Source: Oribacterium parvum ACB1
Lineage (GTDB): Bacteria > Bacillota > Clostridia > Lachnospirales > Lachnospiraceae
Reading direction: 5' to 3'
Length of the DNA: 64,000 nucleotides
Assembly: GCF_000238055.2 (NCBI RefSeq)
Contig: NZ_KE148312.1
Location: 813,201-877,200, forward strand
This document shows, piece by piece, positions 12,275 through 64,000 of the stretch. A program made the translations under genes and the position numbers. Numbering within the stretch: position 1 is the stretch's first letter; the number at the start of each line of letters is the position of its first letter. The notes beneath the pieces are model-generated. The model worked only from the letters and a program-made list of their open reading frames with translations, did not search any database and was not told the origin of the DNA.

Positions 12275-15200
12275 GATGCAGCCTCCTGTTCCTGCCCGCT
12301 TTTCAGGGCATCATGGTGCACCCCTGCGGTGTTTCCTGCGTTATCCATCTGCCAGCGAATTGACTTCTGATATTCTGTCCACATACGGGCATATTCGCCC
12401 TGTCTTGCAGCTAATTCCTCATGTCTGCCGTACTCCGCTATCTGTCCGCCCTTCATCACGATGATTTGGTCTGCATCGGTAATGGTAGAGAGACGGTGCG
12501 CAATCATAATTACCGTTTTGTTTTTTGTCAGTTCTTTCAATGCCTGTTGAATCTGTGCTTCATTTTCCGGGTCTGCAAAAGCGGTGGCCTCGTCCAAAAC
12601 GATGATAGGGGCATCCTTCAATATTGCTCTCGCAATAGCGAGCCGCTGTATTTCGCCACCGGAAAGATATACACCTTTTCCTCCAATCATCGTATGGATT
12701 CCATCGGGGAGTTTTTCGAGAATATCATCACATCCAGCTAAATGCAGAGCGTTCAAAATATCCTCTGCGGCTGCGTTCTTTTTCCCGCCCCGGACATTTT
12801 CTTCAATGCTTGCTTTCAGCAGCTTTGGATTTTGAAATACAAAGGCAACTCTTTCCATCAACGCCTTCCTGTTCATGGAAGAAAGTGCTACGCCTCCGAT
12901 GGAAATGCACCCCTCCTGAATATCATAAAACCGTGGAATTAAAGAGCCTATGGTACTTTTGCCTGAGCCGGAATGTCCTACCAAAGCAGTCACGGTTCCG
13001 CCTTTCGCAAGGAAGCTGACATCGGAAATGGCAGGGCCCTCGCCTGTAGGATAAGTAAAAGTCACATGGTCGAATCTTACATCATTACCCTGCGGCAGTT
13101 TGAACTCTCTTGGCTCTGCCTGCTCCCTTGTCAGCAGGATTTCATCAATGCGCCGCATGGATTCCACAGCCTGCATCTTGTAGTTGGTCAAATACATCAA
13201 TTTGTTCAGCATAGCTGCACAGGCAGGTGCAAAAATCAAATAGAATAAAAAGTTTTGTGCAAATGTTTCCAAATCTGCCGCGGCTGCCATACCAATCAAG
13301 GCTGCCGGGATCAAGGCAAGAAACGAGGAGTTTACCACAGTATTAAACGCCACATACCCCGGCTTGCAGGCCATCGTATAGGCTAAGGCGTCATCCCGGT
13401 AGGCATGGATGGCTTCTTTGAAACGGCGCAGCGAATGAACGGACTGACCAAAGATTTTAATGACGGAAATTCCTCTGACGTACTCCACCGCTTCATGGCT
13501 CATGTCCTCTTGCGCATCCTGATAGCGTTTCATAAAATTCATGGTTTCTTCACCCATCATAGACATTTGAAACGCAAAACCGATCATCATAAGCACCAGC
13601 ACAGGAAGTCCAATCCGCCAGTCAACCGCAAGCATGAGAAGCGCCGCAGCAGCCATAGACACCTGTGCCCCTACGAGGTCAGGAAGCTGATGTGCCAGAT
13701 AGCTTTCTGTCTGTTTACTGTTTTCATCTATGATTTTCCGCAGTTTTCCGCTGTTGTTTTCTTCAAAATATCCCAGAGGCAGCCTTGACAGATGTTCCAA
13801 TACTGCCATTTTCAAATTCTGTTCCGTATGAAAAGCAGCTTTGTGAGACAAAAGCAGGGCAATAAAATTGACAATCAAGCCTGCCAGTTCAAACCCAAGC
13901 GCCCAAAGCCCCCAATACGCCAACGCAGACGCATCTATGCTGCCGCCAAGCAGGAAATCCAAAAGCTCCCTTGCGGCAAAATAAACACAAAGAAACGGCG
14001 CTAACAGCAATAATGCACTCGCTCCGGCAAGAAGCTGGGAGAGAAAGAGCATGGGACCAAATGGAGCCGTAAATTCCAACAATCTTGGAATACCGGTTTT
14101 TTGCGGTTTTCTTATCTGTGCATCTTCTCTAAATACTTTCCACATATAGATGTTCCCCCTTTCATCTAATGGCAGGAGCTTTTTTACTTCTCCTGCATGA
14201 ATATGTAAAATATGTGTGGCACAGCGGGCAATCAGCTCCGGGTCATGGGATACGATAAGAGAGCATACGGCATTCTCGTTCGCTTTTCGTATGATTTCTA
14301 CAGTGCGAAGCAGATTGTCCCCATCCTGTCCGCTGGTTGGCTCATCATACAGCATGACCGGACGTCGGTTACAGATCGCTGTTGCAAGAGCAAGCCGCTG
14401 CTGCTGTCCGCCGGAAAGAGAACCGGGGTGTCTGTTTTCCAATCCCGCCAACCCTAACTCACGGAGTACCGCCTGTGCCTGTTCCTCTGTTAAAGAAGGA
14501 TTGTTTAGCGTAAGCTCACCCATTACACTGTCGCTAAAAAGCTGGTGTCCTGCCTCCTGCATGACAAGGAAAGCTGTTTCCGGCAGTCTTTTGTTCGGAA
14601 CTGTTTTTCCTTCTATCATAATCGTTCCGTTATGCCTGAGAAGCCCCGCAAGGCATAAACTCAGCGTGGACTTACCTGCACCGTTCTCGCCAATGACCGC
14701 AACAATCGCTCCTTTTGGAATTGCCAGGTGGCGAATATCCAATACCTGGCGCTGCCCACGGTTAAAGGTCAGACCGTGGATTTCGATTGCCGGTTCCTGA
14801 TTCAAATTTCGATTCGCGGTTTCGGGCATGATATGAAGCTGCTGCGGATTGACTGCGCGAAGCCCCAAAGCAGTCCTTTCCTGCTGTGTCAGTGCATTTA
14901 TTTCTTTCGGCTCGTATTCCCTGATAATCCGTCCGTTATCCATTAAGATATATCGGTCAGTCATTCCGCTAAGATACCATAGGCGATGTTCGGACATTAA
15001 AATTGTCTTTCCGTCCTCTTTCATGGTGCGAATCAGCTTTTGCAGCTTTTGTATGCTTTCCATGTCCAGATTGGACGAAGGCTCATCCAATACCACCACC
15101 TCTGGCAAGGACGCATAGACAGAGCCACAGGCAATCTGCTGTTTTTCCCCGCCGGACAGTTCAAAAATGTCCCGTTCCAGCAGTTCCTCCAAATGCAGAT

Positions 15201-15597
15201 GATAAGCGACTTCCTCAAGCCGCTTTTTCATTTTCTCCCTTGGCATATTTTGATTTTCCAGATTAAATGCCATTTCCCCTGTGGTATCCATGTGAAAAAA
15301 CTGAGTCCGTGGATTTTGAAAAACACTTCCCACAAATCTTGAGATTTTCGGCAGATCAGACGAGGGGATGTCCATGCCATGTACCCTTACAGCTCCCTGT
15401 AGGTTTCCAGCGTAAAAATGTGGTGCAAGCCCATTGACAAGACGCAGCATTGTGGTTTTTCCACAGCCGCTTTTTCCGCACAGGACAATACATTCGCCCT
15501 TTTTGATGTGCAGATTCACATCTTTTAATACTACAGAGGAAGCAGGCGTTTCCATACCCGTCTGATAGGAAAATGATACATTTTCAAATGTTACCAT
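12268..15597 (-). CDS. Triple-ATPase fusion: ECF dual-ATPase plus ABC exporter-fold half-transporter
   Basis: One open frame of 1109 codons joins two modules. Residues 1-484 carry two ECF/Cbi-type ATPases: first GKSGCGKTT, LSGGEKQQ, VVVLDEPSSNLD; second GENGAGKST, LSGGQQQR, VMLYDEPTSGQD. Residues 485-1109 are a half-transporter with six membrane helices and a third ATPase (GHSGSGKST, LSGGEIQR, IIVLDEATAFAD, AHRLST). At the junction the codons for ERGN form an AGGGGG ribosome site nine bases before an in-frame ATG at 14145 (MWKVFRED), so the second half may also be made alone. The first half should drive the EcfT/S pair upstream, the second should pair with the 571-residue protein. Separate genes are the usual arrangement. 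Confidence 0.88.
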   Translation of the reverse strand: MVTFENVSFSYQTGMETPASSVVLKDVNLHIKKGECIVLCGKSGCGKTTMLRLVNGLAPHFYAGNLQGAVRVHGMDIPSSDLPKISRFVGSVFQNPRTQFFHMDTTGEMAFNLENQNMPREKMKKRLEEVAYHLHLEELLERDIFELSGGEKQQIACGSVYASLPEVVVLDEPSSNLDMESIQKLQKLIRTMKEDGKTILMSEHRLWYLSGMTDRYILMDNGRIIREYEPKEINALTQQERTALGLRAVNPQQLHIMPETANRNLNQEPAIEIHGLTFNRGQRQVLDIRHLAIPKGAIVAVIGENGAGKSTLSLCLAGLLRHNGTIMIEGKTVPNKRLPETAFLVMQEAGHQLFSDSVMGELTLNNPSLTEEQAQAVLRELGLAGLENRHPGSLSGGQQQRLALATAICNRRPVMLYDEPTSGQDGDNLLRTVEIIRKANENAVCSLIVSHDPELIARCATHILHIHAGEVKKLLPLDERGNIYMWKVFREDAQIRKPQKTGIPRLLEFTAPFGPMLFLSQLLAGASALLLLAPFLCVYFAARELLDFLLGGSIDASALAYWGLWALGFELAGLIVNFIALLLSHKAAFHTEQNLKMAVLEHLSRLPLGYFEENNSGKLRKIIDENSKQTESYLAHQLPDLVGAQVSMAAAALLMLAVDWRIGLPVLVLMMIGFAFQMSMMGEETMNFMKRYQDAQEDMSHEAVEYVRGISVIKIFGQSVHSLRRFKEAIHAYRDDALAYTMACKPGYVAFNTVVNSSFLALIPAALIGMAAAADLETFAQNFLFYLIFAPACAAMLNKLMYLTNYKMQAVESMRRIDEILLTREQAEPREFKLPQGNDVRFDHVTFTYPTGEGPAISDVSFLAKGGTVTALVGHSGSGKSTIGSLIPRFYDIQEGCISIGGVALSSMNRKALMERVAFVFQNPKLLKASIEENVRGGKKNAAAEDILNALHLAGCDDILEKLPDGIHTMIGGKGVYLSGGEIQRLAIARAILKDAPIIVLDEATAFADPENEAQIQQALKELTKNKTVIMIAHRLSTITDADQIIVMKGGQIAEYGRHEELAARQGEYARMWTEYQKSIRWQMDNAGNTAGVHHDALKSGQEQEAASC

Positions 15598-15612
15598 AAA
15601 AATCCTCCCCTC

Positions 15613-16314
15613 TCACCAAAGCAGATTCCATACAAGGACAATGACGGAAACTGCAACAAATATCCAATCCAGCGCCTTCATCTTCACTTCAAGGAAACTG
15701 CTTCGGGGATGGTCTTTATCAAATCCACGAGCCATAACTGCTGCGGACATTTCATCCACAATCGCCGAACTTTGCAAAAGAAACGGCACTAACATATTTT
15801 CCAGCATATACAGAGGGCGACGCAGTACATTTTTTATGGATAGAGCCATTCCACGCAGACGCATTGCCTGTGTGATGACCTGCCATTCCTCTGTCAGCGT
15901 GGGCACAAAACGAAACATGACCGCTATGGGAATAATAACCACATTTGGCAGGTGCATCGCCATAAACGCGCTGATATATTGTCCCACGGTTGAGGTTTTC
16001 GTGACAATATAAAAGGCGCCAAACAGAGGAAGCAAAAACCGAAGCACATGGCACAACAACAGGGCTGCATATTGGGGCGGGCCGGACAATCTTCCCACCA
16101 CAAACAAGTCACATAAGAACATAACTGCAAATGTAATAGAAACATTCAACGCCCACCGCCACTTTTTACAAATCAGCATTGTAATACCGCAAAACAGAAG
16201 CAGGGCAATCTCCTGAATATACGTCATACCTGAAAAAGTCGAGAAGCAAGCAGCGACAAATACCGCCAGCTTGCTTCTCGGATCTAACACAGTTCTTGAA
16301 TTTTTCTGCGTCAT
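15613..16314 (-). CDS. ECF transporter transmembrane (T) component, CbiQ/EcfT-like
   Basis: The 233-residue membrane protein has about five to six helices. The two cytoplasmic coupling-helix signatures of T components are visible: AMRLRGMA near residue 150 and AVMARGFDK near 192. It connects the paired ATPases (here residues 1-484 of the triple-ATPase protein, 15 bp downstream) to the substrate-binding S component encoded just upstream, whose stop codon it overlaps by four bases (ATGA). Co-translation with both is likely. Confidence 0.88.
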   Translation of the reverse strand: MTQKNSRTVLDPRSKLAVFVAACFSTFSGMTYIQEIALLLFCGITMLICKKWRWALNVSITFAVMFLCDLFVVGRLSGPPQYAALLLCHVLRFLLPLFGAFYIVTKTSTVGQYISAFMAMHLPNVVIIPIAVMFRFVPTLTEEWQVITQAMRLRGMALSIKNVLRRPLYMLENMLVPFLLQSSAIVDEMSAAVMARGFDKDHPRSSFLEVKMKALDWIFVAVSVIVLVWNLLW

Positions 16315-50994: not shown

Positions 50995-51750
50995 CTATCT
51001 TAGCTCCACCCCTTTTTTCTCCAGTTCCTTTTTTTCTTTTTCGGAAAATGTTTTATCCGTAATCAAAACGTCAAATTCCTGAATACCACAGATTGTCATC
51101 ATAGCTTGTTTTTCAAATTTACTCTCATCCGCCAGTAAAACCGCTTTTTTGGACTGTTCCAAAATAGTCTTCTTTAGGGCTACCTTCTCCATAGTCGGCG
51201 TACTCAGCTCCAGCTTACTATTGATAGAAGAAGCCCCGAGAAAAGCGATATCAAAGGAATAATCCTTAAGCTGATTTACGGTATAGCTTCCCAAAGCCGA
51301 GCCCGTGCTTTTTTGAATTTCTCCTCCACAAAAGAAAAGGCGCGCAGTTCCGCTTTGTAAGACCCCTGCAATCATAAGGTCTGTCGTCACCACAGAAAGA
51401 GTCTCTCTATCCTTTAATAAAAAAGCAAGTTCCCTATTCGTTGTACCTGCATCCAAAAAAATCACCTTGACATCATCCAAGAGTTCCAAAGCCTTTTTTG
51501 CGATAAACTTCTTCGCCTCTATATTTTGTATCTCTTTTTCCTGATAAAGCACTTCATCACGTAAAACAGCACCACCATGAAAACGTTCTATCCGGTTCTT
51601 GGCTTCCAAATATTTCAAGTCTCTTCTAATTGTCATTCCACTGACAGAAAACTGCCTTGCCAAATCATCTACGGATACAGAACCGTCCTTCTCCAGAATA
51701 GATAGGATGATTTGCTGCCGTTCTCCCAGTAAAATCTTCTCTCGTCTCAT
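50995..51750 (-). CDS. DeoR-family transcriptional regulator
   Basis: The 251-residue protein has the DeoR N-terminal helix-turn-helix (RQQIILSILEKDGSVSVDDLARQFSVSGMTIRRDLKYLE) and the C-terminal sugar-phosphate sensor domain (FLDAGTTNRELAF, FCGGEIQKSTGSALG, VLLADESKF). It lies downstream of gntP, pdxA2 and the DUF1537 kinase gene and probably regulates them through a phosphorylated intermediate. Confidence 0.92.
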   Translation of the reverse strand: MRREKILLGERQQIILSILEKDGSVSVDDLARQFSVSGMTIRRDLKYLEAKNRIERFHGGAVLRDEVLYQEKEIQNIEAKKFIAKKALELLDDVKVIFLDAGTTNRELAFLLKDRETLSVVTTDLMIAGVLQSGTARLFFCGGEIQKSTGSALGSYTVNQLKDYSFDIAFLGASSINSKLELSTPTMEKVALKKTILEQSKKAVLLADESKFEKQAMMTICGIQEFDVLITDKTFSEKEKKELEKKGVELR

Positions 51751-51848
51751 TTCTTACTCCCTTGTTTCAACAAGAAAACCGTTTTATGGATAAAGTATAT
51801 GGGGATTCTATCTTTAATACAAGAAGGCTATTTATTCTTTTTAACAAC

Positions 51849-51920
51849 TAAGCTTCGCATTCTCTTCGATAAATAAGCTTCGCATTCTTTTCGATAAATA
51901 AGCTATTCCTTCTCGATAAA
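51849..51920. repeat. 25-bp tandem array between gntP and the deoR-type gene
   Basis: Units TAAGCTTCGCATTCTCTTCG plus ATAAA at 51849-51873 and 51874-51898 (one mismatch), then a shorter unit at 51899-51920. The 360-base gap between gntP and the regulator has no credible gene apart from this array. Confidence 0.8.
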
Positions 51921-52112
51921 TAAAATTCCGCTTACTTCCCATTCGTTTCTCTTTGGGAACAAAAAGGAGATGTAAAAACTTTTTTCTAAAGTAGAAGGCT
52001 GAAAGGGGGAAGCAGCCCTTGTACCGATAGAAATCCGTTATTTTTACATCTCCATAAAGGAAACTCTCCCTTGCAAAAAACAAAGGCGAAATTTCTCTTT
52101 TATATTTGTTCT

Positions 52113-53519
52113 TTAGTGCAGGATGAAGCTTAGGATAATAACCTCTAAGCAACCCACTGCCCAGATAATGGTTGTGGTAATGGACCAAACACGAATCTGA
52201 TCCTTTGCCTCACTTACACCAAGAGTTCTGTTTACTACCCAGAAGTAGCTGTCGTTAAAATAACTGAAGAAGCAAGAGCCTACACAGCAAGCCAAAGCGG
52301 AAACAACAGGGTTGGCTCCGGTAGCCAGAATAATCGGTGCGGAAATACTTGCCGCGGTGGTCATTGCCACTGTTCCGGATCCCTGAATGAAACGCATTAC
52401 AGTGGAAATCACAAGCGGAAGAAGGATAATAGGCACATTCATAGCGGTAATGCCCTCTGCCATATAAGTACCGAGACCGGAATCCTTAATAATCTGTCCT
52501 AAAGCTCCGCCACCACCGGTTACGAGCATGATAATACCGGCAGACATCATTCCCTTTTCCATGGACGCCAAGATTTCCTTACGGCTCATATTCCTACCAA
52601 GGATGAAAATAGCTGTTAATAATCCGATTCCTACTGCAACAATAGGCTGTCCCAAGAAAATGAGGACATGGAAGAATCCATCGGTCATCTTCATTGCTGT
52701 AAATACGGTATTCATTAAAATCAAAATGACCGGTAAAACAATGGGAAGGAAGGAAGAAAATGTAGAAGGAAGCTTTTCCGCTCCAAGATTGATCTCTTTT
52801 CCACTCTCTACACCGCCTGCCGGAGCTTCCACGAGCTCATCATTTTCATTTACAATCCAGTTCATTTTCTTTGCGATATACTTTCTCGCATAGAAAATAG
52901 CCACTATGGTCATGGGGATGGAAAGTACTAAAGCCAGTAAGATAAACTGTCCGACATCTACTCCGAAGATTCCGCAGACTCCCAAGGGGCCGGGAGTTGG
53001 CGGCACCATGGTATGCGTGATTACAAGGCCGGCTGCCAGAGCCACTCCCAAAGAAATCAGGGATTTCTTGGCAACCTTGGAAATAGCCTTTGCGATAGGA
53101 GACAGGATAATAAAGCCGGAATCACAGAAGATAGGAATAGAAACCAAGAATCCGGTAAAAGCCAAAGCCTCTTCTTCCTTATTCTTTCCAAAAACCTTTA
53201 AGAAGCAAAGAGCCATTCGCTTAGCCGCTCCCGTTTCCTCGAAAATTGCTCCCAACATAACGCCGAAGCCGATAATGATACCGATACCGGATAAGGTATT
53301 TCCAAAACCGCTGGTAATAGACTGTAAAATACCAAACTTTGTTCCGTTTTCCAAAGTGATTGTGTTCAAAGGCATTCCTCCGATAACCCCAATCACTACT
53401 GTAGTGATAATCAGCGCCAAAAAGGCCTGAATCTTCGTCTTTAAAACCATGAAAATCAGTAAAATGATACCGATTGCCAAGCCCAGGAGCATTTGCTCTC
53501 CATGTAAACCGTTAACCAT
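52113..53519 (-). CDS. GntP-family permease
   Basis: Start taken as ATG 53519 (MVNGLHGEQML) after AAAGGAGG. The 468-residue protein has about 12 membrane segments and GntP motifs (VIGGMPLNTITLENG, FGVMLGAIFEETGAAKRMA, SPIAKAISKVAKK, HTMVPPTPGPLGVCGIFGVD, RFIQGSGTVAMTTAASI). Members import aldonates by proton symport. Next to PdxA2 and a DUF1537 kinase its likely cargo is a four-carbon sugar acid such as D-threonate or D-erythronate. Confidence 0.9.
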   Translation of the reverse strand: MVNGLHGEQMLLGLAIGIILLIFMVLKTKIQAFLALIITTVVIGVIGGMPLNTITLENGTKFGILQSITSGFGNTLSGIGIIIGFGVMLGAIFEETGAAKRMALCFLKVFGKNKEEEALAFTGFLVSIPIFCDSGFIILSPIAKAISKVAKKSLISLGVALAAGLVITHTMVPPTPGPLGVCGIFGVDVGQFILLALVLSIPMTIVAIFYARKYIAKKMNWIVNENDELVEAPAGGVESGKEINLGAEKLPSTFSSFLPIVLPVILILMNTVFTAMKMTDGFFHVLIFLGQPIVAVGIGLLTAIFILGRNMSRKEILASMEKGMMSAGIIMLVTGGGGALGQIIKDSGLGTYMAEGITAMNVPIILLPLVISTVMRFIQGSGTVAMTTAASISAPIILATGANPVVSALACCVGSCFFSYFNDSYFWVVNRTLGVSEAKDQIRVWSITTTIIWAVGCLEVIILSFILH

Positions 53520-53625
53520 ACTTTCCTCCTTTAGAAAAAGTTCTTCCTTTACCCCTTCGTTGTTCAATTAACACTTTAGTTCTTTAATGCCCCATTAAGC
53601 GAAACACTTCAAGGCATTAAAAAAT

Positions 53626-54624
53626 CTAATGTTTAAAAGCCTCTGCATACTTTGCAGCAAGGCGAATTGCTTCTTCCATACTGATGCTGTCCGCAATACC
53701 CGTTCCCGCAATATCAAAAGCCGTTCCATGATCCACGGAAGTTCTCAAGATTGGCATACCGTTGGTAACGGAAATGGTTCTGTCAAAGTCCAGTGTCTTT
53801 GTAGCAATATGCCCCTGATCATGGTAGAGGGAAAGCACGGAGTTGTATCTTCCCTGCGCAGCCTGATGGAAAACCGAATCCGCTCCAATCGGTCCTACTA
53901 CAGGGTATCCTTCTCTTTGCAATTCCTCTACCGCAGGCATAATCTCCCTTACTTCCTCGTCTCCGAACAAACCGTGCTCTCCGCAGTGGGGATTCAGGCC
54001 GGCAATAGCCATTTTCCCATCTGTAACCCCAAGCTTCTTCAGAGCCTCAAGACAGCGTTTCACATAGTCCATGATTCTCTCCTTCGTAATCATATCCAGC
54101 ATTTTCCGAAGAGAAACATGTCTTGTTAAGAAGAACACCCTCATACCGTTACATTCAAACATAGTCAAGGGATCCTCTGTCTGGGTTAATGCCCCAAAAA
54201 TCTCCGTATGACCTATAAAGGGAACGCCTGCCGCCTTCAAAGACTCCTTATTGATGGGTGTGGTAGCCACAGCATCAACCAGCTTTTCATTTGCCAGTTC
54301 AATGGATTTCTTGATATAGGAAAATGCCGCCTGACCGCACATGGCACTCACTTCTCCATAAGCAAATTTCTCTAAAGAAATCTCTCCCTCCTGCATGTAG
54401 TACAGGGTATCTTTTTCCTCTCCCAGTTCTTCTACTTTCTCAATTTGTTGTAAACGAATCGGCAGCTTACAGATTTCCACTGCCTTCTCCAAAATCTTGC
54501 CATCTCCGATAACCAAGACCTTCGCAATATCTTGGATTTCTTTTTTTGAAATTGCTTTGACTACTATTTCCGGACCGATACCGGCAGGGTCTCCCATCGG
54601 CACCGCAATAATTGCTTTAGACAT
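53626..54624 (-). CDS. pdxA2: PdxA2-type 4-phospho-erythronate/threonate dehydrogenase
   Basis: The 332-residue protein is of the PdxA family ([17 protein letters not shown] start, [10 protein letters not shown] near residue 138 and [14 protein letters not shown] near 208 and [38 protein letters not shown] near 268 carrying the metal-binding His residues). Its neighbours (DUF1537 kinase, GntP, DeoR) mark it as PdxA2: it oxidises 4-phospho-D-threonate or -erythronate, with decarboxylation to dihydroxyacetone phosphate. A role in vitamin B6 synthesis is unlikely in this setting. Confidence 0.88.
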
Positions 54625-54777
54625 TTTTATCCTCCTTCTTTCTCTCTTACTTTATGATTCTTTTTGAATATTCGTTTTTTAGATTTCTTTTCTTAGCCCG
54701 GCCACTAATATAGTCGCTTGTACAAAGAACTTTTCGAGCCAAGTAGCTGTAAGTTTCCTTAAAACGAGCATAAGCAC

Positions 54778-56082
54778 TTATACAAAGAGCTTCTCCTTCA
54801 AGAAGGAAATACAACGGATAATGGCATCTCTTCCGCCCTGACTGCCTCCCTTTGTAACCATATGCATCCCGGGAAAATCTCCCATCAACATCTCTCCATG
54901 TGCAGCAAGCGGTAAAACCTCTTCCTTCAGGCTAAGTCCTGCTGTTTGGAAGCGTTTGCAAATGGAAACCGTAACATCTCCTCCACTGCTGTAAATTCCC
55001 TTAAAGCTCTTTTCTCTCTCACAGATTCTATGTGCTATTTCCGCAAAGGCCAAGTTCATCTTGTTGGAAATCTCTTCTATCTGACAGGCTCTACTCTCTG
55101 CAAGTTGAGCAAGGTCAACTCTGTTTTCCGGATAGATACCGTCTCCGGTTACCGTAAATACTCTATCCTTATCCACATCTTTAAGAATTGCGTCTACGAC
55201 TCTCTGCACTTCCTGTTCCCACTGCTCTTCGCCTTCCAAAAGGGCTCTTGTCTCCACAAAAACATTTTTACATCTTTGCGATAGCCAGAGATCTTCCAAC
55301 TGAAGTCTGGTATGCGGATTCACACTTCCCACTACAGCCAGTACCTTGTTTTTCTCCTTCTTTTCACTTGGAGGAACCCGTTTTCTCACAAGACTTGCGG
55401 TAAATACTCCCGGGTCCACCGCCAGAACCTTTAGCTTTGAGGTTTCCACCGCATCCGCAATCAAATCAATATCCTCTTGGGTTACGCAATCCACTACCAG
55501 AATTCGATTTCCCTCTTCCACGAGCCTCTTCATGCAATCCGCCAGATAATGCTTCCCATGAAGTAAATCCTTCATCAAAATGGATGCAATGGAATATTTA
55601 CTCTGCTTTCGGAAAAGCTCCGCCACCTCCGGATTATTTACCGGTGTCTTCGGATCAATCGCAATATCCGTCTTATGTAGAGGAAGTCCCTCTACCAGCA
55701 TGTAGCCACCAAGCACAATACGAGACGAAGTAGGGAAGCAAGCAACCACAATGGCCACATACTCTTCTCCGAGGGACTCCAGCATGGCATCTACTTCCGC
55801 CCCCAGATTTCCTCTTAAGGTACTGTCTATTCGTTTGCTGTATACCTTCGTTTCCTCGTTTTTTAGCAAGTTGCAAACATTGGAAACTCTTCTGTAGGCT
55901 AGGTCCTTGTCAATCCCACGGCTATCTGTGGGATATAAAAGGCAGTCGCAACTTTCCAGCATGGATAGCTCCAAGCGTTCCGTATTGAGCACTGTGTAAG
56001 CGCTATAATTCATCTTTTGCAGTAAAACACCCGTGGCATTGGCTCCCGTTAAATCATCTGCAATGACAATGCACTTTGCCAT
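54778..56082 (-). CDS. dtnK: Four-carbon acid sugar kinase (DUF1537)
   Basis: The 434-residue protein begins CIVIADDLTGANATGVLL, the family's N-terminal substrate domain, has SKRIDSTLRGNLGAEVDAML near residue 82, and a C-terminal nucleotide-binding domain with GIYSSGGDVTVSI and MVTKGGSQGGRDAI. DtnK-type enzymes phosphorylate D-threonate at O4, and DenK-type D-erythronate. It is first in the operon with pdxA2 and gntP; a good promoter and regulator site lie 90-130 bases upstream. Confidence 0.88.
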   Translation of the reverse strand: MAKCIVIADDLTGANATGVLLQKMNYSAYTVLNTERLELSMLESCDCLLYPTDSRGIDKDLAYRRVSNVCNLLKNEETKVYSKRIDSTLRGNLGAEVDAMLESLGEEYVAIVVACFPTSSRIVLGGYMLVEGLPLHKTDIAIDPKTPVNNPEVAELFRKQSKYSIASILMKDLLHGKHYLADCMKRLVEEGNRILVVDCVTQEDIDLIADAVETSKLKVLAVDPGVFTASLVRKRVPPSEKKEKNKVLAVVGSVNPHTRLQLEDLWLSQRCKNVFVETRALLEGEEQWEQEVQRVVDAILKDVDKDRVFTVTGDGIYPENRVDLAQLAESRACQIEEISNKMNLAFAEIAHRICEREKSFKGIYSSGGDVTVSICKRFQTAGLSLKEEVLPLAAHGEMLMGDFPGMHMVTKGGSQGGRDAIIRCISFLKEKLFV

Positions 56083-56455: not shown

Positions 56456-56785
56456 CTATCCTTCCCTCTTTCTACTTTTTGCAATTTCCATTCGTTGCTT
56501 AATTTGAGGACCGGCAACTTGAATTAAAATTACAACAATCAAGATGATTCCTTTTACCGCATCATTGATTAAAGAATTCATCTTTAAGGCGATAATGATT
56601 TTATCGATTACCGTATAAGAAAGAGAGCCGAATAAGATGCCCAGACATTTTCCCTTTCCGCCCGACATACTGATTCCACCTAAAACCACCGCTGCAATAG
56701 CATACATTTCAAAGCTGGATCCGGTAGTCGCAGGATCGGAAGAAGCATTCATAGCTATCCAGAAAAAGGAAGCCAGCCCCACCAT
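56456..56785 (-). pseudogene. Sugar ABC permease (RbsC-like), C-terminal third only
   Basis: The frame matches the C-terminal 100 residues of ribose-type permeases: FEMYAIAAVVLGGISMSGGKG and NDAVKGIILIVVILIQ. The first 200 or more residues are missing; the sequence to the right at 56790 is a LacI C terminus on the other strand. It cannot form a transporter. An intact homologue is encoded at 57064-58023. Confidence 0.82.
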
Positions 56786-57063: not shown

Positions 57064-58023
57064 CTACTTTCTTACCTGGTCAATCACTACCGCAATCAAA
57101 ATAATTACACCCATGGCAACTGTCTGCCAGTAAGCAGAAACTCCTAGTAGACTTAAAGCATTATTTATAATTCCTATTACAATAAGTCCAATAACCGTTT
57201 GTGGAATTCCACCACGGCCTCCGGACATACTCGTTCCCCCCATAGCCACGGCTGCAATCGCATTTAATTCGTAACCGACAGCAGCAGTAGCCTGTCCGTT
57301 CTGAAGCTTAGAAGCAAGAACCAAACCGGCAAGCGCAGACAAAATGCCGGATATTACATACACGGAAAAACGAATCTGATCCACATTGATTCCGGTTAAC
57401 TTTGCAACTTCTTTATTGCTCCCGACTGCATAAACATATCTGCCATAGCATGTCTTAGTCAGAAGAACATAACTTAGTAAGATAATAAGAACCATTAAGA
57501 TAACACAAACCGGAATAATACCAATTTCCTTTAATCCAATGAACCCAAAGCTTTCCGGAAGTCCAAAAACCGGCTTTGCGTCAGTAAAGACATATGCTAA
57601 GCCTCTTGCTACGTTCATCATTGCCATCGTTGCAATAAAAGGAGGCACATTTAACTTCGCAATACAAAATCCATTGATTGCCCCACAAATCGTTCCAATC
57701 ACAAGGGAAGTTAAAATTATAATCAGAATGGACATCGGTACTGATGCATTTGGCATGGTTTTTACAAGAGATGCTCCTGCTACACCTGCAATGGCAGCAA
57801 CGGATCCTACAGAAAGATCAATTCCGTCTGACAAGATGGTAAAAGTCATTCCACAAGCAATTAAAGCGTTGATGGAAATCTGAATCAGAATATTCTTGAT
57901 GTTTCCCCCAGTTGCAAAACGGGGAACAAAAATTAAACAAACTGCAAAGAGTGCAACAGCAAATAGGAGCATGGTATTTTCCCCTTTTAAGACTCCTGCA
58001 ATACCATTTTTCTGTTTATTCAT
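57064..58023 (-). CDS. Sugar ABC transporter permease (RbsC-like)
   Basis: The 319-residue membrane protein has about nine to ten helices, ILSDGIDLSVGSVAAIAG near residue 62, ICGAINGFCIAKLNVPPFIATM near 110 and GYELNAIAAVAMGGTSMSGGRGG near 250, all conserved in ribose/xylose/autoinducer-2 permeases. Overlaps the ATPase gene by eight bases. It forms the membrane channel with the RbsA-like ATPase and the lipoprotein encoded upstream. Confidence 0.94.
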   Translation of the reverse strand: MNKQKNGIAGVLKGENTMLLFAVALFAVCLIFVPRFATGGNIKNILIQISINALIACGMTFTILSDGIDLSVGSVAAIAGVAGASLVKTMPNASVPMSILIIILTSLVIGTICGAINGFCIAKLNVPPFIATMAMMNVARGLAYVFTDAKPVFGLPESFGFIGLKEIGIIPVCVILMVLIILLSYVLLTKTCYGRYVYAVGSNKEVAKLTGINVDQIRFSVYVISGILSALAGLVLASKLQNGQATAAVGYELNAIAAVAMGGTSMSGGRGGIPQTVIGLIVIGIINNALSLLGVSAYWQTVAMGVIILIAVVIDQVRK

Positions 58024-59533
58024 ACGCTACCTCCTCATTTCCCTTGCTTGCAAAGAGCATAACATTTTCCTCCGTTGCCTCTGCACTATCTAAAAATCCT
58101 GTTACATACCCTTCACGCATCACCATAATACGATTCGAGCAACCAAGCACTTCCGGTAACTCCGAAGAGACTAAAATTATACTTCCACCACCTTCTACGA
58201 AATTCTTCATAAGTTCGTATATTTCTGCTTTCGCATTGACATCAATTCCTCTCGTCGGCTCATCCATAATCAGAATTTTAGACTTTGCAAGAAGCCACTT
58301 TGCAATAACCACCTTTTGCTGATTTCCACCTGAAAGATTCTTTGTGACCGCCAAATCGGAAGGTGTTTTGATTCTCAACTTTTCTATATAAGATACGGCT
58401 TCCTGCTTTTCCCACAAAAAGTCAATAAAACCGTTATGACTATTCTCTTTTAAGGAAGCTAAACTGGTATTCTCACGAACTGTTTTCTCCAGTAATAGCC
58501 CCTGTCCTCTTCTATCTTCCGGAATAAGTCCAATTCCTCTTCGGATAATCTCTTTAGGACTCTTCCCTTTAATACTTTCTCCATACAATAGCACGTCACC
58601 ATGCTCATAAGTGTCTGCACCAAAAATAGCACGCATTAACTCTGTTCTTCCTGCACCAATTAAACCTGCAACACCAAGAACTTCACCTTTATATAATTGG
58701 AACGAAACATTTTTAAAGCGATGAGCAGAAGATATCTCTTTTACTTCTAAAACAACTTCTCTTTTCTCTGGCACTTCTGCCTTATAATAGAATTGAGAAA
58801 TTTCTCTACCCACCATCATTTCAACCATTTTCTGTTCTGTTACTGTAGAAACAGGTACCGTTGCAATCTTTGTACCATCTCTAAGAACTGTAAGGGTATC
58901 TCCCATCTCTAGAATTTCTTTTAAACGATGGGAAATGTAGATTACTGCTACATTGTCTTTCTTCAGCTGACGGATGACGCGAAAAAGAGACTGCACTTCA
59001 TGATCTGATAGGGAACTCGTAGGCTCATCCATGATAACCATTTTACTATTCTGCGAAACGGCTCTGGCAATTTCCACCATCTGTTTCTCACCGTTACTTA
59101 GTTTATGGACCGGTGTGGTCGGATCAATCGCTACATCCATTCCATCTAGAATTTTTTTGCATTCGGCAATCATCTTCCCTTTATCCAAAAAACCGGATTT
59201 TTTCTTTTCCCTTCCTAGGAAAACATTTTCGTAAACTTTCAAATCAGGGATGACACTTAACTCCTGGTGAATAACACTGATACCGCGATGCTGGGCTTCA
59301 CGAATATTTTTCGCTCCGGGTGCTCCTTCTATCAGCACTTCACCTTTATCCGGCTGATAAATGCCCGAAATAATCTTAATGATTGTAGACTTTCCTGCAC
59401 CATTTTCCCCTAAAAGCACATGTACTTCTCCAGGATAAAAGGCAATGGAGATATCCTCCAGAACTTTCACGCCGGGAAACTCTTTATGAATATGTTTCAG
59501 CTCTACTAAAGCCTCTCTTTTCTCATCCATCAT
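58016..59533 (-). CDS. Sugar ABC transporter ATPase with two ATPase domains (RbsA-like)
   Basis: The 505-residue protein has two fused ABC domains: the first with GENGAGKSTIIKI, LSNGEKQMVEIARA and VIMDEPTSSLSDHE; the second, degenerate at Walker A (GLIGAGRTELMRAI), with LSGGNQQKVVIAKWL and LIMDEPTRGIDVNAK. This layout is specific to monosaccharide importers of the RbsA/MglA class. It is separated from the binding-protein gene by a hairpin that may limit its expression. Confidence 0.95.
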   Translation of the reverse strand: MMDEKREALVELKHIHKEFPGVKVLEDISIAFYPGEVHVLLGENGAGKSTIIKIISGIYQPDKGEVLIEGAPGAKNIREAQHRGISVIHQELSVIPDLKVYENVFLGREKKKSGFLDKGKMIAECKKILDGMDVAIDPTTPVHKLSNGEKQMVEIARAVSQNSKMVIMDEPTSSLSDHEVQSLFRVIRQLKKDNVAVIYISHRLKEILEMGDTLTVLRDGTKIATVPVSTVTEQKMVEMMVGREISQFYYKAEVPEKREVVLEVKEISSAHRFKNVSFQLYKGEVLGVAGLIGAGRTELMRAIFGADTYEHGDVLLYGESIKGKSPKEIIRRGIGLIPEDRRGQGLLLEKTVRENTSLASLKENSHNGFIDFLWEKQEAVSYIEKLRIKTPSDLAVTKNLSGGNQQKVVIAKWLLAKSKILIMDEPTRGIDVNAKAEIYELMKNFVEGGGSIILVSSELPEVLGCSNRIMVMREGYVTGFLDSAEATEENVMLFASKGNEEVAYE

Positions 59534-59600: not shown

Positions 59601-60614
59601 TTACTTTGCATTCTTCGCATCAATGATATACGGCGCAATCAAAATCTCGGAATCTACCTGCTCTCCTTCCAAATGCTTCTTAATTGCTTCCAGAGTGGAC
59701 TTGCCAATTCCTGCAGGATCCTGTGCTACATCAGCAACCCAGTTTCCACCCTTCTTAATTTCAGCAACACCTTCCGGATTTCCGTCATAGCCAATAATCT
59801 TTGTCTTTGCACCGGCAGCTGTAATGGAAGAAAGTGCTCCTGTTGCTGCAGGGTCACCTACGCAGAAAACAACATCGATGTTGTCATTCTTTAAAAGCAT
59901 ATTCTGCATAACATCTGCAGCTTTCTGCTGGTCTCCGGAGTAGTTCTGTACATCTACAATCTTGATGTCCGGAGCATTTTCTTTCAGATAATCTGTAAAT
60001 CCTTTTTCTCTATCTACACAGCTCTCGATTTCAGAGTATGTGATGACTGCTGCATTTCCTTTCTTGTCGGTAAGAATATTGTTCACTACATATTCAGCAG
60101 CAAGCTGTCCACCCTTCTTGTTATCTGTAGCAACATGGGTAACCGGCTTTCCATCAGAAGCGATATCCATGGTAAATACCGGAATGCCTGCCTTATCAGC
60201 CAAATCAATCATGGACTTGGATCCGGCTGAGTTTGTCGGAGCAATCACGATAGCATCTACCTTCTTGGTGATGAAGTCCTGTACCTGACCAAGCTGCTTG
60301 TTTGCATCTCCGGCTGCATCCTGTACATCCAAGGTCCAGCCATACTCTTTTGCCTGCTCTTCCATAGCAGATTCAATGCTGTTATAGAACACATGTGTAC
60401 TGTTTAGAAGGCTCACACCAATGGTCTTCGCCTCTCCTTTACTTTGCTCTTTTGCAGCTTCTGTCTCACCAGCTTTCTCAGTAGCTTTCTCACTAGCCTG
60501 CTCTGTTTGCTTCTCTGTTCCTGCTGCTGTTGTACTCTTTGCAGCACCGCCACCGCAAGCCATAAGGGACACTGCCATTAAGGCTGCGAGTGCAAAAGAA
60601 ATACCTTTTTTCAT
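59601..60614 (-). CDS. Sugar ABC transporter substrate-binding lipoprotein
   Basis: Start taken as ATG 60614 (MKKGISFALA) after GGAGG. The 337-residue protein has a lipobox (SLMAC), a Thr/Glu/Ala-rich spacer of about 45 residues, and a periplasmic-binding-protein type 1 fold (TIGVSLLNSTHVFYNSIESAM, VDAIVIAPTNSAGSKSMID, NAAVITYSEIESCVDREKGF, DVVFCVGDPAATGALS, IIGYDGNPEGVAEI). The binding pocket belongs to the ribose/autoinducer-type class; the sugar cannot be read from sequence. The catabolic genes upstream suggest a ketose or related sugar. Confidence 0.93.
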   Translation of the reverse strand: MKKGISFALAALMAVSLMACGGGAAKSTTAAGTEKQTEQASEKATEKAGETEAAKEQSKGEAKTIGVSLLNSTHVFYNSIESAMEEQAKEYGWTLDVQDAAGDANKQLGQVQDFITKKVDAIVIAPTNSAGSKSMIDLADKAGIPVFTMDIASDGKPVTHVATDNKKGGQLAAEYVVNNILTDKKGNAAVITYSEIESCVDREKGFTDYLKENAPDIKIVDVQNYSGDQQKAADVMQNMLLKNDNIDVVFCVGDPAATGALSSITAAGAKTKIIGYDGNPEGVAEIKKGGNWVADVAQDPAGIGKSTLEAIKKHLEGEQVDSEILIAPYIIDAKNAK

Positions 60615-60654
60615 CAATTTTTCCTCCTCTTTAAATTAAATTGGTAATATTCAG

Positions 60655-60702: not shown

Positions 60703-61557
60703 CTAAGCCTTATTTACGCTATTCAAAACCTGCATCTTATGCATAACAAGCTCTTTCACTTTCGCTCTACCTGCACCATTATATTTCTTAGGATCAAAGG
60801 CATCCGGATTCTCCGCTATAAACGCTTTCACTCCCTTTGTAAATGCATCTCTTAGCTCAGTTGCAAAATTCACCTTGCAAATTCCAAGTCCTGTAGATTT
60901 CTTTACATCCTCATCCGGTATTCCGGATGCTCCATGTAATACGATAGGAATACTTACCAAACCTTTCGTCTTCTCCAAGATATCAAAACGTAGTTTTGGA
61001 ACCCCTTGATAAAAACCATGTGCATTTCCAATTCCAACCGCTAGAAAATCCACCCCCGTCTGCTCTGCAAACGCTTTTGCCTCCTGCGGATCGGTGTAGG
61101 CCTTTTCACTATCCTTCACTTCATGCGTGTCTTCTTTACCTCCGACTGTTCCAAGCTCTCCCTCAACCGGAACTCCCATAGCGTGAGTAAACTCCACAAC
61201 CTTCTTTGTAAGTTCAACATTTTCTGCAAAAGGAAGTTTCGAACCGTCAATCATGATAGAAGTATAGCCGGAGCGAAGCGCCTTCGCACAAAGTTCCGCG
61301 CTGTTCCCATGATCCAAGTGTAATGCTACAGGAACCTTTGCTTTCCCTGCCACCGCATTCACCATTCCAAAAAATAGGTCCGTATCTGCATACTGCAGGC
61401 TTCCCGGAGTTGTTTGAATAATCACCGGAGAGGACGACTCTTCTGCTGCAGACACAATTGCCTGCACCATCTCCATGTTCTCTGCATTAAAAGCGCCTAC
61501 TGCATATCCCTCTCTTTGTGCTTTTAACAAAATATCTTTTGAACTGACTAAACTCAT
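60703..61557 (-). CDS. Class II fructose/tagatose-bisphosphate aldolase
   Basis: The 284-residue protein has the zinc-binding HLDHGNSAE (near residue 80), GVPVEGELGTVGGKED near 132 and IPIVLHGASGIPDEDVKKS near 202, and a conserved KVNFATELRDAF. It is of the GatY/KbaY/FbaA class that cleaves ketose-1,6-bisphosphates to DHAP and glyceraldehyde-3-phosphate. Its operon partners (PfkB kinase, DhaL, DhaK-like) suggest cleavage of a bisphosphate made from the imported sugar; whether fructose or tagatose type is not decided by inspection. Confidence 0.92.
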   Translation of the reverse strand: MSLVSSKDILLKAQREGYAVGAFNAENMEMVQAIVSAAEESSSPVIIQTTPGSLQYADTDLFFGMVNAVAGKAKVPVALHLDHGNSAELCAKALRSGYTSIMIDGSKLPFAENVELTKKVVEFTHAMGVPVEGELGTVGGKEDTHEVKDSEKAYTDPQEAKAFAEQTGVDFLAVGIGNAHGFYQGVPKLRFDILEKTKGLVSIPIVLHGASGIPDEDVKKSTGLGICKVNFATELRDAFTKGVKAFIAENPDAFDPKKYNGAGRAKVKELVMHKMQVLNSVNKA

Positions 61558-61590: not shown

Positions 61591-62523
61591 TTACTTTATC
61601 TCCTCTATTTCCACTTTTGAAAGCATCTCTTCCAAATCCTGCCTTTCACATAGCTCTGTCCCGGGGTGAAGAAGAGATCCCGTTGCACAAGCTACCGCAT
61701 AACGAAAAACCTCTTTGTCCGGAAGCCCTTCCATCATAGCAAGACAAGCACCTGCAACCATAGAATCCCCCGCGCCTTGCACACCTTGCACCAAAACCTT
61801 CACTGGCTTTGCCTGATAAACCTTACTTTCTGTTAAGAACACGGCGCCTTCTTCTCCAAGCGAAATACAAAGATAATGGACTCCCCCCTGAATCAAAGTC
61901 TTTCCAAAAGAAAGCATCTCCTCTTTATCTCGGAAAGCTTTCCCATATAGGATTTCCAACTCCCCTCTATTTGGCTTCACAAAAAACGGCTTTGCCGGAA
62001 GCGCCAAAGAAAGTAAATCCCCACTGGCATCCAAAATTGTTTTCACTCCCTTTTCATTGGCCTTTTGGATTAAATCCCGATAAATACTTCTCGGTACTCC
62101 GGGCGGGACTGACCCATCTACAACAAGAATATCCGTTTTATCCCACTCTTTGTCCAATAGAGCAAGAAATCCCTCTACATCTTGTTCTGTAACTTCTCTC
62201 CCTTTATCATTAAACTCACTCATCACTCTTTTTTCCGTGTCAAAAATCTTCACATTGACACGCAATGCTCCCGGAACAGAATATAAAGTATACGGGCAAT
62301 GAATTTCCTTGAAAAATCGTTCTAATTTTTCTTTATCCTCCTGATAAGAAAAACCCGCCGCCTTATTCTGAATTCCCAGATTCTGTAGTGCAAGACTAAC
62401 GTTGATTCCTTTTCCGGAAATATCCTCTTGCGTTCTTAAAACTTTGTTTGTTCCTCCATATAGAAATTTTTCAATTTCAATGGTGCGATCAACGCAAGGG
62501 TTTAACGTTACTGTCAGAATCAC
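61591..62523 (-). CDS. PfkB-family 1-phosphofructokinase / tagatose-6-phosphate kinase type
   Basis: The 310-residue protein begins ILTVTLNPCVDRTIEIEKFL, as in FruK and LacC, has SGKGINVSLALQNLG near residue 36, and the PfkB active-site block VQGVQGAGDSMVAGACLAM near 245 (catalytic Asp in GAGDS). It phosphorylates a ketose monophosphate to a bisphosphate, the substrate of the aldolase encoded next. It overlaps the dhaL gene by four bases. Confidence 0.92.
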   Translation of the reverse strand: MILTVTLNPCVDRTIEIEKFLYGGTNKVLRTQEDISGKGINVSLALQNLGIQNKAAGFSYQEDKEKLERFFKEIHCPYTLYSVPGALRVNVKIFDTEKRVMSEFNDKGREVTEQDVEGFLALLDKEWDKTDILVVDGSVPPGVPRSIYRDLIQKANEKGVKTILDASGDLLSLALPAKPFFVKPNRGELEILYGKAFRDKEEMLSFGKTLIQGGVHYLCISLGEEGAVFLTESKVYQAKPVKVLVQGVQGAGDSMVAGACLAMMEGLPDKEVFRYAVACATGSLLHPGTELCERQDLEEMLSKVEIEEIK

Positions 62524-63164
62524 TGCTCTTCCCCCTTTACAAAATCAGCCATGGCCTGAAAGATAATATACACGGAAGTTGCACCGGCATCCTGCAGTCC
62601 AATTGCCTTTTCCCCAAAATACTTCGCCCTTCCAAAACGTGCCTTAATGGTCTTGGTATATTCCATACCTTTCTTTGCTGCTTCAGCCGCCTTCTGTAAG
62701 CCTTCTGTTAAATCCAAACCGTCTTCACTACCTTCTTTCAAAGCAAGCACAGCCGGCTCCAGCGCATCCACCATGGTCTTGTCTCCCACTTTCGCTTTTC
62801 CTCTTTTCTTTAGAGAAGCAAGGGAAGTGAAGAATACTTCTGCAAAATCCTTCAAAGAGAATGTATCTCTTTCCTCTCGTTTCACAATGCCCGAGATAAA
62901 CACCGTTCCAAAAAGTACACCCGATGCACCGCCCATAGTATCTAACAAACAAGTTCCTACGGCTTGGAAAACCTCTTCACAAGATCGTGGATAGAAGGTC
63001 TCCAACATTCGTTCCACGGCAAGAAACCCTCGCTTCATGCCCGTACCATGGTCACCATCCCCAATCTTTAAATCTATTTCCGTAAGATAAGGCTCTGCTT
63101 CCACAATTCTCTTCGCTACGGACTTCATCATTTCTTTTAGTTGTTCTTTATTCAATTCGTTCAT
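62520..63164 (-). CDS. dhaL: DhaL-type dihydroxyacetone kinase subunit
   Basis: The 214-residue all-helical protein has the Mg-ADP site IDLKIGDGDHGTGMKRGF near residue 30 and DTMGGASGVLFGTVF near 74 and DAGATSVYIIFQAM near the C terminus. DhaL supplies the phosphoryl group to DhaK. In PTS-type systems DhaM recharges bound ADP; no dhaM is in the window, so either it lies to the right or this DhaL uses ATP directly. Confidence 0.93.
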   Translation of the reverse strand: MNELNKEQLKEMMKSVAKRIVEAEPYLTEIDLKIGDGDHGTGMKRGFLAVERMLETFYPRSCEEVFQAVGTCLLDTMGGASGVLFGTVFISGIVKREERDTFSLKDFAEVFFTSLASLKKRGKAKVGDKTMVDALEPAVLALKEGSEDGLDLTEGLQKAAEAAKKGMEYTKTIKARFGRAKYFGEKAIGLQDAGATSVYIIFQAMADFVKGEEQ

Positions 63165-63203: not shown

Positions 63204-64000
63204 TCAAATCTTTCTTTTATAGAACAGTGGAGAATATGCCTCTTGCCGATAAAAATCTCTATATTGCTCCTGTATTTTTAAGAAGGTGAGCGATAATCCT
63301 CCGGCTCCCTGTGTCGGAAAAAGAGACTGAACAAAAGTATCAAACACCTTTATCTTTTTACTCTGCAAGAACTCCTGCAAGCTATGTAGTAAGACACACT
63401 CCTCTAAAACGGTAGTTGCCTGAAAGGGATTCACAAAAACTGCAATCTCACTTCCTTCTTCTATCTGTAAGTCATGAATGAGAGGTTCCGCCAACTTTTC
63501 TATCATCTCCTCTGCAAGGGGAAGCTCTGTCCTTTCTTTTCCCATCTCTCCGTTAAATCCCATGCCGTATTCTACAAAACCATCCGGTAAATCATAGGCT
63601 TCTTTTCCTGTTTCAAAGACAAACGCAGGTGATGTTGTGACACTTGCTGTCGCCAGATTCCGGTTTAACTCTTCCCCAAGAGAAACCAGTTCATCCAGAC
63701 TAAGTCCTGCATCCCTCGCAGCGGAAAGAACCTTTAAGACAATGGTAACTCCGGCAATTCCTCGTCTTTCTTCTCTGTCAACAGCAGAATCTACATCATC
63801 TGAAACATAAATTTGTCTCGTTTTTATTCCTTCCAATTCTGCAAGTTCACTAACTAATTCAAAATTCAATACATCTCCGGCATGGTTCGTTGCGATACAC
63901 AGAACGCCTTTCTCATGGGGAAGCGCACGAATCGTCTTCAAAATACTTCCCGCTGCGGGTGCAGTAAAAACGTCCCCTAAAACACAGGCATCTGCCAGTC
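63204..64000 (-). CDS. dhaK: DhaK-like subunit, N terminus outside the window, altered active-site motif
   Basis: The frame is open to the right edge (reading LADACVLGDVFTAPAAGSIL before LKTIRALPHEKG), so roughly the first 70-80 residues are missing. Visible family motifs are CIATNHAGDVLNF (with the catalytic Asp of GD), VSDDVDS and RRGIAGVTIVLKV, and SLGEELNRNLATASV. The segment expected as GIGIHGEPG, whose His binds dihydroxyacetone covalently, reads YGMGFNGEMG: the His is replaced by Asn. So the protein may bind another substrate or not form the hemiaminal. First visible gene of the sugar operon. Confidence 0.88.
   Translation of the reverse strand, partial: LADACVLGDVFTAPAAGSILKTIRALPHEKGVLCIATNHAGDVLNFELVSELAELEGIKTRQIYVSDDVDSAVDREERRGIAGVTIVLKVLSAARDAGLSLDELVSLGEELNRNLATASVTTSPAFVFETGKEAYDLPDGFVEYGMGFNGEMGKERTELPLAEEMIEKLAEPLIHDLQIEEGSEIAVFVNPFQATTVLEECVLLHSLQEFLQSKKIKVFDTFVQSLFPTQGAGGLSLTFLKIQEQYRDFYRQEAYSPLFYKRKI

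Follow-up and report, generated by a model that had tools for sequence, protein, structure and literature searches.

A DhaK-like protein with asparagine at both active-site histidine positions in Oribacterium parvum: candidate subunit of an ATP-dependent ketohexose 1-kinase

Introduction

Dihydroxyacetone (DHA) kinases are the textbook case of covalent substrate capture by histidine. ATP bound to the L part phosphorylates the neighbouring hydroxymethyl group of the triose, with Asp109 as general base, and His56 helps to form the hemiaminal bond in DhaK. The same family includes the L-erythrulose and D-erythrulose kinases, which have C4 ketoses as substrates. A DhaK/L homologue, the triokinase TKFC, also takes part in fructose breakdown in the liver, together with a PfkB-type ketohexokinase and an aldolase. 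The human, Citrobacter and E. coli DHA kinases hold the triose as a hemiaminal on a histidine (PMC6429413). For some haloarchaea, a route consisting of ketohexokinase, fructose-1-phosphate kinase and aldolase has been proposed, at a time when no gene had been assigned to the characterised ketohexokinase (PMC3102087). Among the literature matches listed, compared by titles and abstract openings and with subscription literature outside the scope, none describes a DhaK-family ketohexokinase or a His-less DhaK. Here we report residues, grouping, gene neighbourhood, fusions and genome content, each read directly from the sequences, for a DhaK-like protein encoded at the end of a 64,000-nucleotide stretch of the Oribacterium parvum ACB1 genome (the window) and for its relatives.

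Results

The DhaK-like protein and its active-site residues

The reading frame at 63204-64000 (minus strand) encodes ...EYGMGFNGEMGKER... and includes the motif GMGFNGEMG. It is cut by the end of the window, beyond which lie a further 196 bases of the gene; the whole dhaK (L003:12405-13397, minus strand; G000:C1:876404-877396, taken from the genome) encodes 330 aa and has its ATG start codon at the extrapolated position 64196, outside the window, with a purine-rich leader, AGGGAGGAAGGAA, before the ATG. Pfam Dak1 (PF02733) matches the protein with 251.9 bits against a cut-off of 31.4, over positions 2-310 of the 313 in the profile, and is its sole Pfam match at E<=1e-5, so that homology to ketohexokinases of the PfkB type is absent. 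Its score against the DhaK equivalog model TIGR02363 is 253.2, below the cut-off of 406.25, while another DhaK encoded in this genome reaches 468 and exceeds it; against TIGR02362, the model for the DhaQ coactivator, the window protein reaches 187.3, the cut-off being 413.25. The protein is therefore a member of the Dak1 family by homology, while the equivalog cut-offs applied place it in neither DhaK nor DhaQ, so that labelling it simply "dihydroxyacetone kinase" would mislead metabolic models.

The first-pass annotation of this DNA had read GMGFNGEMG as carrying asparagine in place of the substrate-binding histidine, with the catalytic aspartate of a GD motif retained, and alignment to solved DhaK chains (best chain 3ct4, 188.6 bits) bears out both statements. 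Asn215 (GMGFN; codon 63552-63554) aligns with the histidine that binds DHA, and Asp108 ("AGD"; codon 63873-63875) occupies the position of the catalytic Asp109. Moreover, Asn55 (GAGAGNEP; codon past position 64000) aligns with the second active-site histidine of the GGGSGHEP motif, a change that lies outside the window and hence beyond the reach of the first-pass annotation. In E. coli numbering, the window protein thus differs from DhaK at the hemiaminal His218 and at His56, and agrees with it at Asp109. The solved chain 3pno/3pnq has asparagine at the second histidine position, the same change as in the window protein. This chain is the E. coli H56N mutant of DhaK, which reportedly, in work by Shi et al. 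in 2011, bound DHA without a covalent bond.

A sequencing error, named in the first-pass annotation as what would overturn the observation, is ruled out, as is a pseudogene. Both asparagines recur in Oribacterium sinus, Clostridium porci, [Clostridium] symbiosum, Lachnospiraceae KA00044 and Muricomes. Comparison of the window gene with that of O. sinus gives a dN/dS of about 0.06 (0.133 vs 2.28, with dS near saturation). The double-Asn DhaK is hence confirmed as a real observation, and one larger than first noted.

Distribution and grouping of the double substitution

A scan of GTDB species genomes gave six loci with DhaK relatives of the window gene. Asparagine occupies both histidine positions in the proteins of O. 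sinus (82% identical to the window protein), C. porci and [Clostridium] symbiosum (61% each, the two rows being near-identical), KA00044 (58%) and Muricomes intestini (54%); the sixth locus, from Brucella (30%), encodes two DhaK proteins, each with both histidines. The single-sequence search covered 392 genomes of the order, and profile searches covered overlapping samples of 397 genomes from the family, 391 from the class and 398 from the phylum; 17 genomes of the genus and 10 in the order of G1445 were also searched. Within the family, the profile searches added (residues at the His56/His218 positions) G528 (Leu/Asn), G554 and G588 (both Cys/Asn) and G411 (Asn/Asn), and elsewhere in the phylum G1445, G1273 and G1490 (all Asn/Asn). 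We refer to proteins with asparagine in the GFN motif as the GFN type, which occurs in 2 of the 17 Oribacterium genomes, those of the window and, as we identify it, of O. sinus. The histidine positions were checked in the retrieved loci, so that the number of GFN loci is a lower bound; O. sinus (L005/L100) and Muricomes (L009/L099) were each met twice and counted once. A DNA search for plasmid relatives of the window dhaK found none, and in tblastn against plasmids (659 records) the best 40 of 659 were all at most 37.4% identical, the comparison being by identity alone.

From 159 loci, 160 frames were reduced to 111 distinct homologues by dropping frames shorter than 250 aa, those with fewer than 270 matched residues, and near-copies. 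At the three active-site positions, 99 of these read His-Asp-His, nine Asn-Asp-Asn, two Cys-Asp-Asn and one Leu-Asp-Asn. The aspartate is therefore present in 111/111, and each of the 12 homologues whose His218 position is asparagine has a residue other than histidine at the His56 position too (Asn in 9, Cys in 2, Leu in 1). Since none of the 111 counted sequences is without just one histidine, both appear to have been lost together; an earlier count had held three truncated frames with the aspartate and His218 and a gap at His56. The GFN proteins share other residues as well, namely Ala at position 79 (12/12; Ser in 94/99 of the others), Leu at 114 (12/12; Met in 93/99), Thr at 187 (12/12; Ala in 89/99) and His at 105 (9/12; Tyr in 97/99). 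A separate, very divergent Dak1 protein of the genus (L046; 358-aa frame, end branch 2.71) keeps both histidines within the unusual motifs YGGSGHEP and GAGQHGEGG.

That GFNGE proteins might form a clade of their own had been raised in the first-pass annotation. In a tree computed without the two histidine columns, all 12 GFN rows do fall on one side of a single branch with an SH-aLRT value of 99, the tree having been built by a quick method with midpoint rooting and no bootstrap. Its inner order is unsure because several rows, two GFN proteins among them, have long branches. The thirteenth GFN protein (G1490, L168) was found later and left out of the tree.

The operon and its counterparts

All genes of the operon lie on the minus strand with small gaps, in the order (rpiR, outside the window)-dhaK-dhaL-pfkB-fba-rbsB-rbsA-rbsC. 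A DhaL-type ATP-binding subunit of 214 aa (62520-63164; TIGR02365, 194.7 bits, cut-off 138.3), with its DLKIGDGDHG stretch intact, is followed by a PfkB-family kinase of the 1-phosphofructokinase (1-PFK) type (61591-62523; 310 aa; TIGR03828, 293.4 bits, cut-off 292), whose gene shares 4 bases with the end of dhaL, and by a class II fructose-bisphosphate aldolase (60703-61557; 284 aa; TIGR01859, 359.1 bits, cut-off 343), to which the tagatose model TIGR01858 gives 331.8, under its cut-off of 443.6. Beyond these lie an RbsB-type sugar-binding protein (59601-60617; 338 aa), an RbsA-type ABC ATPase (58016-59533; 505 aa) with two ABC_tran stretches by Pfam and a conserved neighbour set, and an RbsC-type permease (57064-58023; 319 aa; Pfam BPD_transp_2), which marks the end of the conserved core. 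The window therefore holds what a pathway starting with a ketohexose C1 kinase would have beside DhaK, namely 1-PFK, a bisphosphate aldolase and a sugar transporter.

The same order is seen in O. sinus, C. porci, [Clostridium] symbiosum and KA00044; in the other GFN lineages the order and the regulator (RpiR or DeoR) vary and the gene set persists. With neighbours counted by tblastn at >=30% identity over 40% of the window protein, the 13 GFN loci contain DhaL in 13, PfkB in 13, RbsA in 12, RbsC in 12, aldolase in 11 and RbsB in 11. DhaL carries the GDGDHG motif and adjoins or is fused to the K subunit in 13/13, and an RpiR or DeoR regulator is present in 12/13, none being seen in L097, where the contig ends. 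L097 also shows no aldolase in its 11.7 kb, its contig stopping within rbsA, and in Muricomes (L009) the aldolase is a fragment of 92 residues and the Rbs genes have no match nearby. The Muricomes operon (L009:11606-15269) is cut after this fragment, with dhaK, dhaL and pfkB still open. By contrast, 30 His-type control loci, which are higher-scoring relatives and not a random sample, and several of which are short stretches (6.0-16.0 kb), contain no PfkB, no RbsB (weaker matches of 22-29% in three loci), aldolase in 4 (32-40% identity), and RbsA and RbsC in 10 each (31-46% for both). Rbs-like transporters alone are thus not specific to the GFN type, whereas PfkB is (13/13 vs 0/30), in agreement with the suggestion, made from the window alone, that a GFNGE clade might be tied to RbsABC/PfkB/aldolase loci. 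In 13/13 GFN loci PfkB shows the RxNxK stretch found in the three best solved fructose-1-phosphate kinases, the sole comparison made. Of eight PfkB proteins scanned, five (window, L005, L006, L009 and L095) pass the 1-PFK equivalog cut-off, and those of L096, L097 and L098 fall below it (268-283 vs 292).

Several further features of these loci were observed. In L095, two different class II aldolase genes (L095:7880-8767 and 14918-15766; 39% and 56% identical to the window aldolase) flank the kinase and transporter genes, and perhaps serve two stereoisomers. Downstream of rbsC, window positions 50995-56082 encode a kinase of the DUF1537 type, which scores best against the NCBIfam model for D-threonate kinase (240 bits, under the cut-off of 450), together with a dehydrogenase of the PdxA type, a GntP permease and a DeoR regulator, a cassette that is absent after rbsC in the 2.8 kb examined of O. 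sinus. Between this cassette and rbsC, a 109-aa frame (56456-56785) matches only the C-terminal part of BPD_transp_2 (191-268 of 269), with stops upstream in all frames, and appears to be left over from another permease gene.

Fusions and genome content

DhaK and DhaL are joined in a single 593-aa polypeptide in C. porci and [Clostridium] symbiosum (Pfam Dak1+Dak2 in the C. porci chain), and DhaL and PfkB form one chain of 544 aa in KA00044 (Pfam Dak2+PfkB). Together the fusions link K to L to PfkB, as would be expected if two phosphorylations followed one another in a relay. Some His-type proteins are K-L fusions as well, so that this fusion by itself points to a working pair and not to a new substrate.

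The window genome encodes a single PfkB of this type at E<=1e-10, and the one PTS model searched, TIGR01427 for fructose PTS IIC, has no match in it, so a substrate resembling fructose-1-phosphate is without another evident source. The adjoining DhaK-DhaL pair is a candidate source of such a substrate for 1-PFK. DhaM (TIGR02364) likewise has no match in the window genome at E<=0.001, while 3/14 control genomes match, and the phosphate donor would therefore probably be ATP; a PTS-type kinase was rejected for lack of DhaM, though enzyme I is present. A second aldolase, 43% identical to that of the operon, is encoded elsewhere in the genome.

A second DhaK-DhaL pair, in which DhaK has both histidines and scores above the equivalog cut-off, lies about 6 kb upstream. 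A Liv-type ABC transporter, assigned by eye, precedes this pair (L004:2795-6486), and after it come a URO-D family protein and a neighbour that is 37% identical and has no Pfam match; URO-D-like proteins recur beside DhaK families, in L004 and in L096/L097. O. sinus, on the other hand, has no match to the DhaK profile besides the GFN protein at E<=0.001, leaving DhaL there without another known partner and speaking against a second DhaK that the GFN protein would merely assist.

Discussion

Proposed function and alternatives

From these comparisons we infer catalysis, substrate, order of steps, non-covalent binding and use of ATP as follows. The window protein would serve as the K subunit, which binds the substrate, in an ATP-dependent kinase formed with the neighbouring L subunit and derived from dihydroxyacetone kinase. 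In this kinase the covalent hemiaminal on His218 would have been abandoned, His56 has been lost too and the putative general base Asp109 has been kept. Ketohexoses are mostly ring-closed at C2, which leaves no free ketone from which a hemiaminal on histidine could form. The K subunit may thus bind a ketohexose non-covalently, probably in the ring form, a C2 hemiketal with no free carbonyl, and DhaL-bound ATP would donate phosphate to the hydroxyl at C1, the C1 hydroxymethyl being the predicted counterpart of the group phosphorylated in DHA. The resulting ketohexose-1-phosphate would be phosphorylated at C6 by the neighbouring 1-PFK, the class II aldolase would cleave the bisphosphate to two triose phosphates, and RbsBAC would import the sugar. 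The loss of both histidines, the kept aspartate and the DhaL partner fit such a putative non-covalent ketohexose kinase, and we consider it somewhat probable that an ATP-dependent DhaK/L pair acts in this way at C1, ahead of 1-PFK and aldolase. The likeliest substrate is perhaps D-fructose, and psicose, tagatose and sorbose are candidates too; class II aldolases and PfkB enzymes can accept several stereoisomers, and the best solved relative of the window aldolase is of the tagatose type, so that fructose is not singled out. Counting against this reading are the PfkB proteins of L096-L098, which score under the 1-PFK cut-off, the want of a full aldolase in L009 and L097, the presence of enzyme I, and the ROK and PfkA-type kinases in the L098 locus, a second possible point of entry.

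The alternative that survives best, though we regard it as unlikely, is that PfkB makes a ketohexose-1-phosphate, the aldolase splits this to DHAP and D-glyceraldehyde, and DhaK-DhaL phosphorylates the glyceraldehyde as a triokinase. Liver fructose breakdown combines the same three kinds of protein. The model match of the window PfkB and its best-scoring solved chains, which are named fructose 1-phosphate kinase or 1-phosphofructokinase, however, both assign it to the 1-PFK type that accepts phosphosugars, and the aldolase passes the model for bisphosphate aldolases. Human TKFC does phosphorylate glyceraldehyde, but binds the triose covalently on His221 (PMC6429413), and a triokinase role therefore gives no reason for the loss of both histidines.

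Next in rank, and also improbable, is that DhaK-DhaL phosphorylates C6 or another non-C1 hydroxyl, after which PfkB phosphorylates C1 in the way LacC acts on tagatose-6-phosphate. The 1-PFK, LacC and Pfk-2 models all match the window PfkB, and the best solved relative of the aldolase is the tagatose-bisphosphate aldolase AgaY. Nevertheless, 8/8 PfkB proteins scanned score higher with the 1-PFK model than with those for LacC and Pfk-2, and the ancestral DhaK chemistry takes place at the hydroxymethyl beside the carbonyl.

We give still less credence to another substrate class, in which an aldose, polyol or branched sugar would enter through the Rbs-type transporter and PfkB and aldolase would act later in a different route. 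None of the solved binding proteins listed is close to the window RbsB (best match 147.6 bits), which aligns its TMDI with TLDR of ribose-binding protein, hinting that its ligand may be other than ribose; moreover, a URO-D family gene lies between dhaL and pfkB in L096/L097. Against this, the locus set shared by the GFN loci includes no isomerase, dehydrogenase or epimerase among the matched genes.

Finally, a non-catalytic regulatory subunit like Lactococcus DhaQ, a regulating DhaK paralogue whose model the window protein matches with 187 bits, is very improbable, given that this score is below both the cut-off of 413 and the protein's own DhaK-model score of 253, that the protein adjoins or is fused to a GDGDHG-bearing DhaL in 13/13 loci, that in O. 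sinus nothing besides the GFN protein matches a DhaK profile at E<=0.001, that Asp108 is invariant, and that RpiR or DeoR regulators are already present in 12/13 loci. The first-pass annotation had left a changed substrate class and a regulatory subunit side by side; comparison of the clade and its loci supports the former, and the DhaL motif, the fusions and the DhaQ score speak against the latter.

Significance and comparison with known systems

If the non-covalent ketohexose kinase is real, a conserved natural clade shows that phosphoryl transfer on the Dak fold needs no bond to histidine, and a kinase can be named for a PTS-free route to fructose-1-phosphate. The broader proposal, that a Dak-fold clade became an ATP-dependent ketohexose 1-kinase and provides such a route in Oribacterium, some clostridia and other Bacillota, seems to us evenly balanced. 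The candidate would act as a ketohexokinase yet lies outside the PfkB fold.

DhaK of E. coli and Lactococcus (PF02733, TIGR02363) resembles the window protein in near whole-length homology, in the aspartate at the Asp109 position and in an adjoining DhaL with GDGD. The window protein differs in lacking both active-site histidines and in scoring below the TIGR02363 cut-off, its genome is without DhaM, and its gene is linked to those for 1-PFK, aldolase and an ABC transporter for sugar. DhaQ (TIGR02362) is likewise a DhaK paralogue, but the window protein scores below its cut-off, is paired with DhaL and has no DhaM. The L- and D-erythrulose kinases provide a precedent for DhaK-family kinases of a ketose other than DHA, the difference being that theirs are C4 ketoses. 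Human TKFC and the ATP-dependent DHA kinase of Citrobacter share the K and L parts and the ATP donor proposed here, and the K-L fusion of C. porci and [Clostridium] symbiosum resembles their one-chain form; these enzymes differ in binding the triose covalently, on His221 and His220, respectively (PMC6429413). The haloarchaeal fructose route shares the series of an ATP-dependent C1 kinase, a fructose-1-phosphate kinase and a fructose-bisphosphate aldolase. There, however, either another putative sugar kinase is named for the first step or a characterised ketohexokinase is given without an identified gene (PMC3102087), whereas the C1 kinase proposed here is a DhaK/L pair associated with an Rbs-type transporter.
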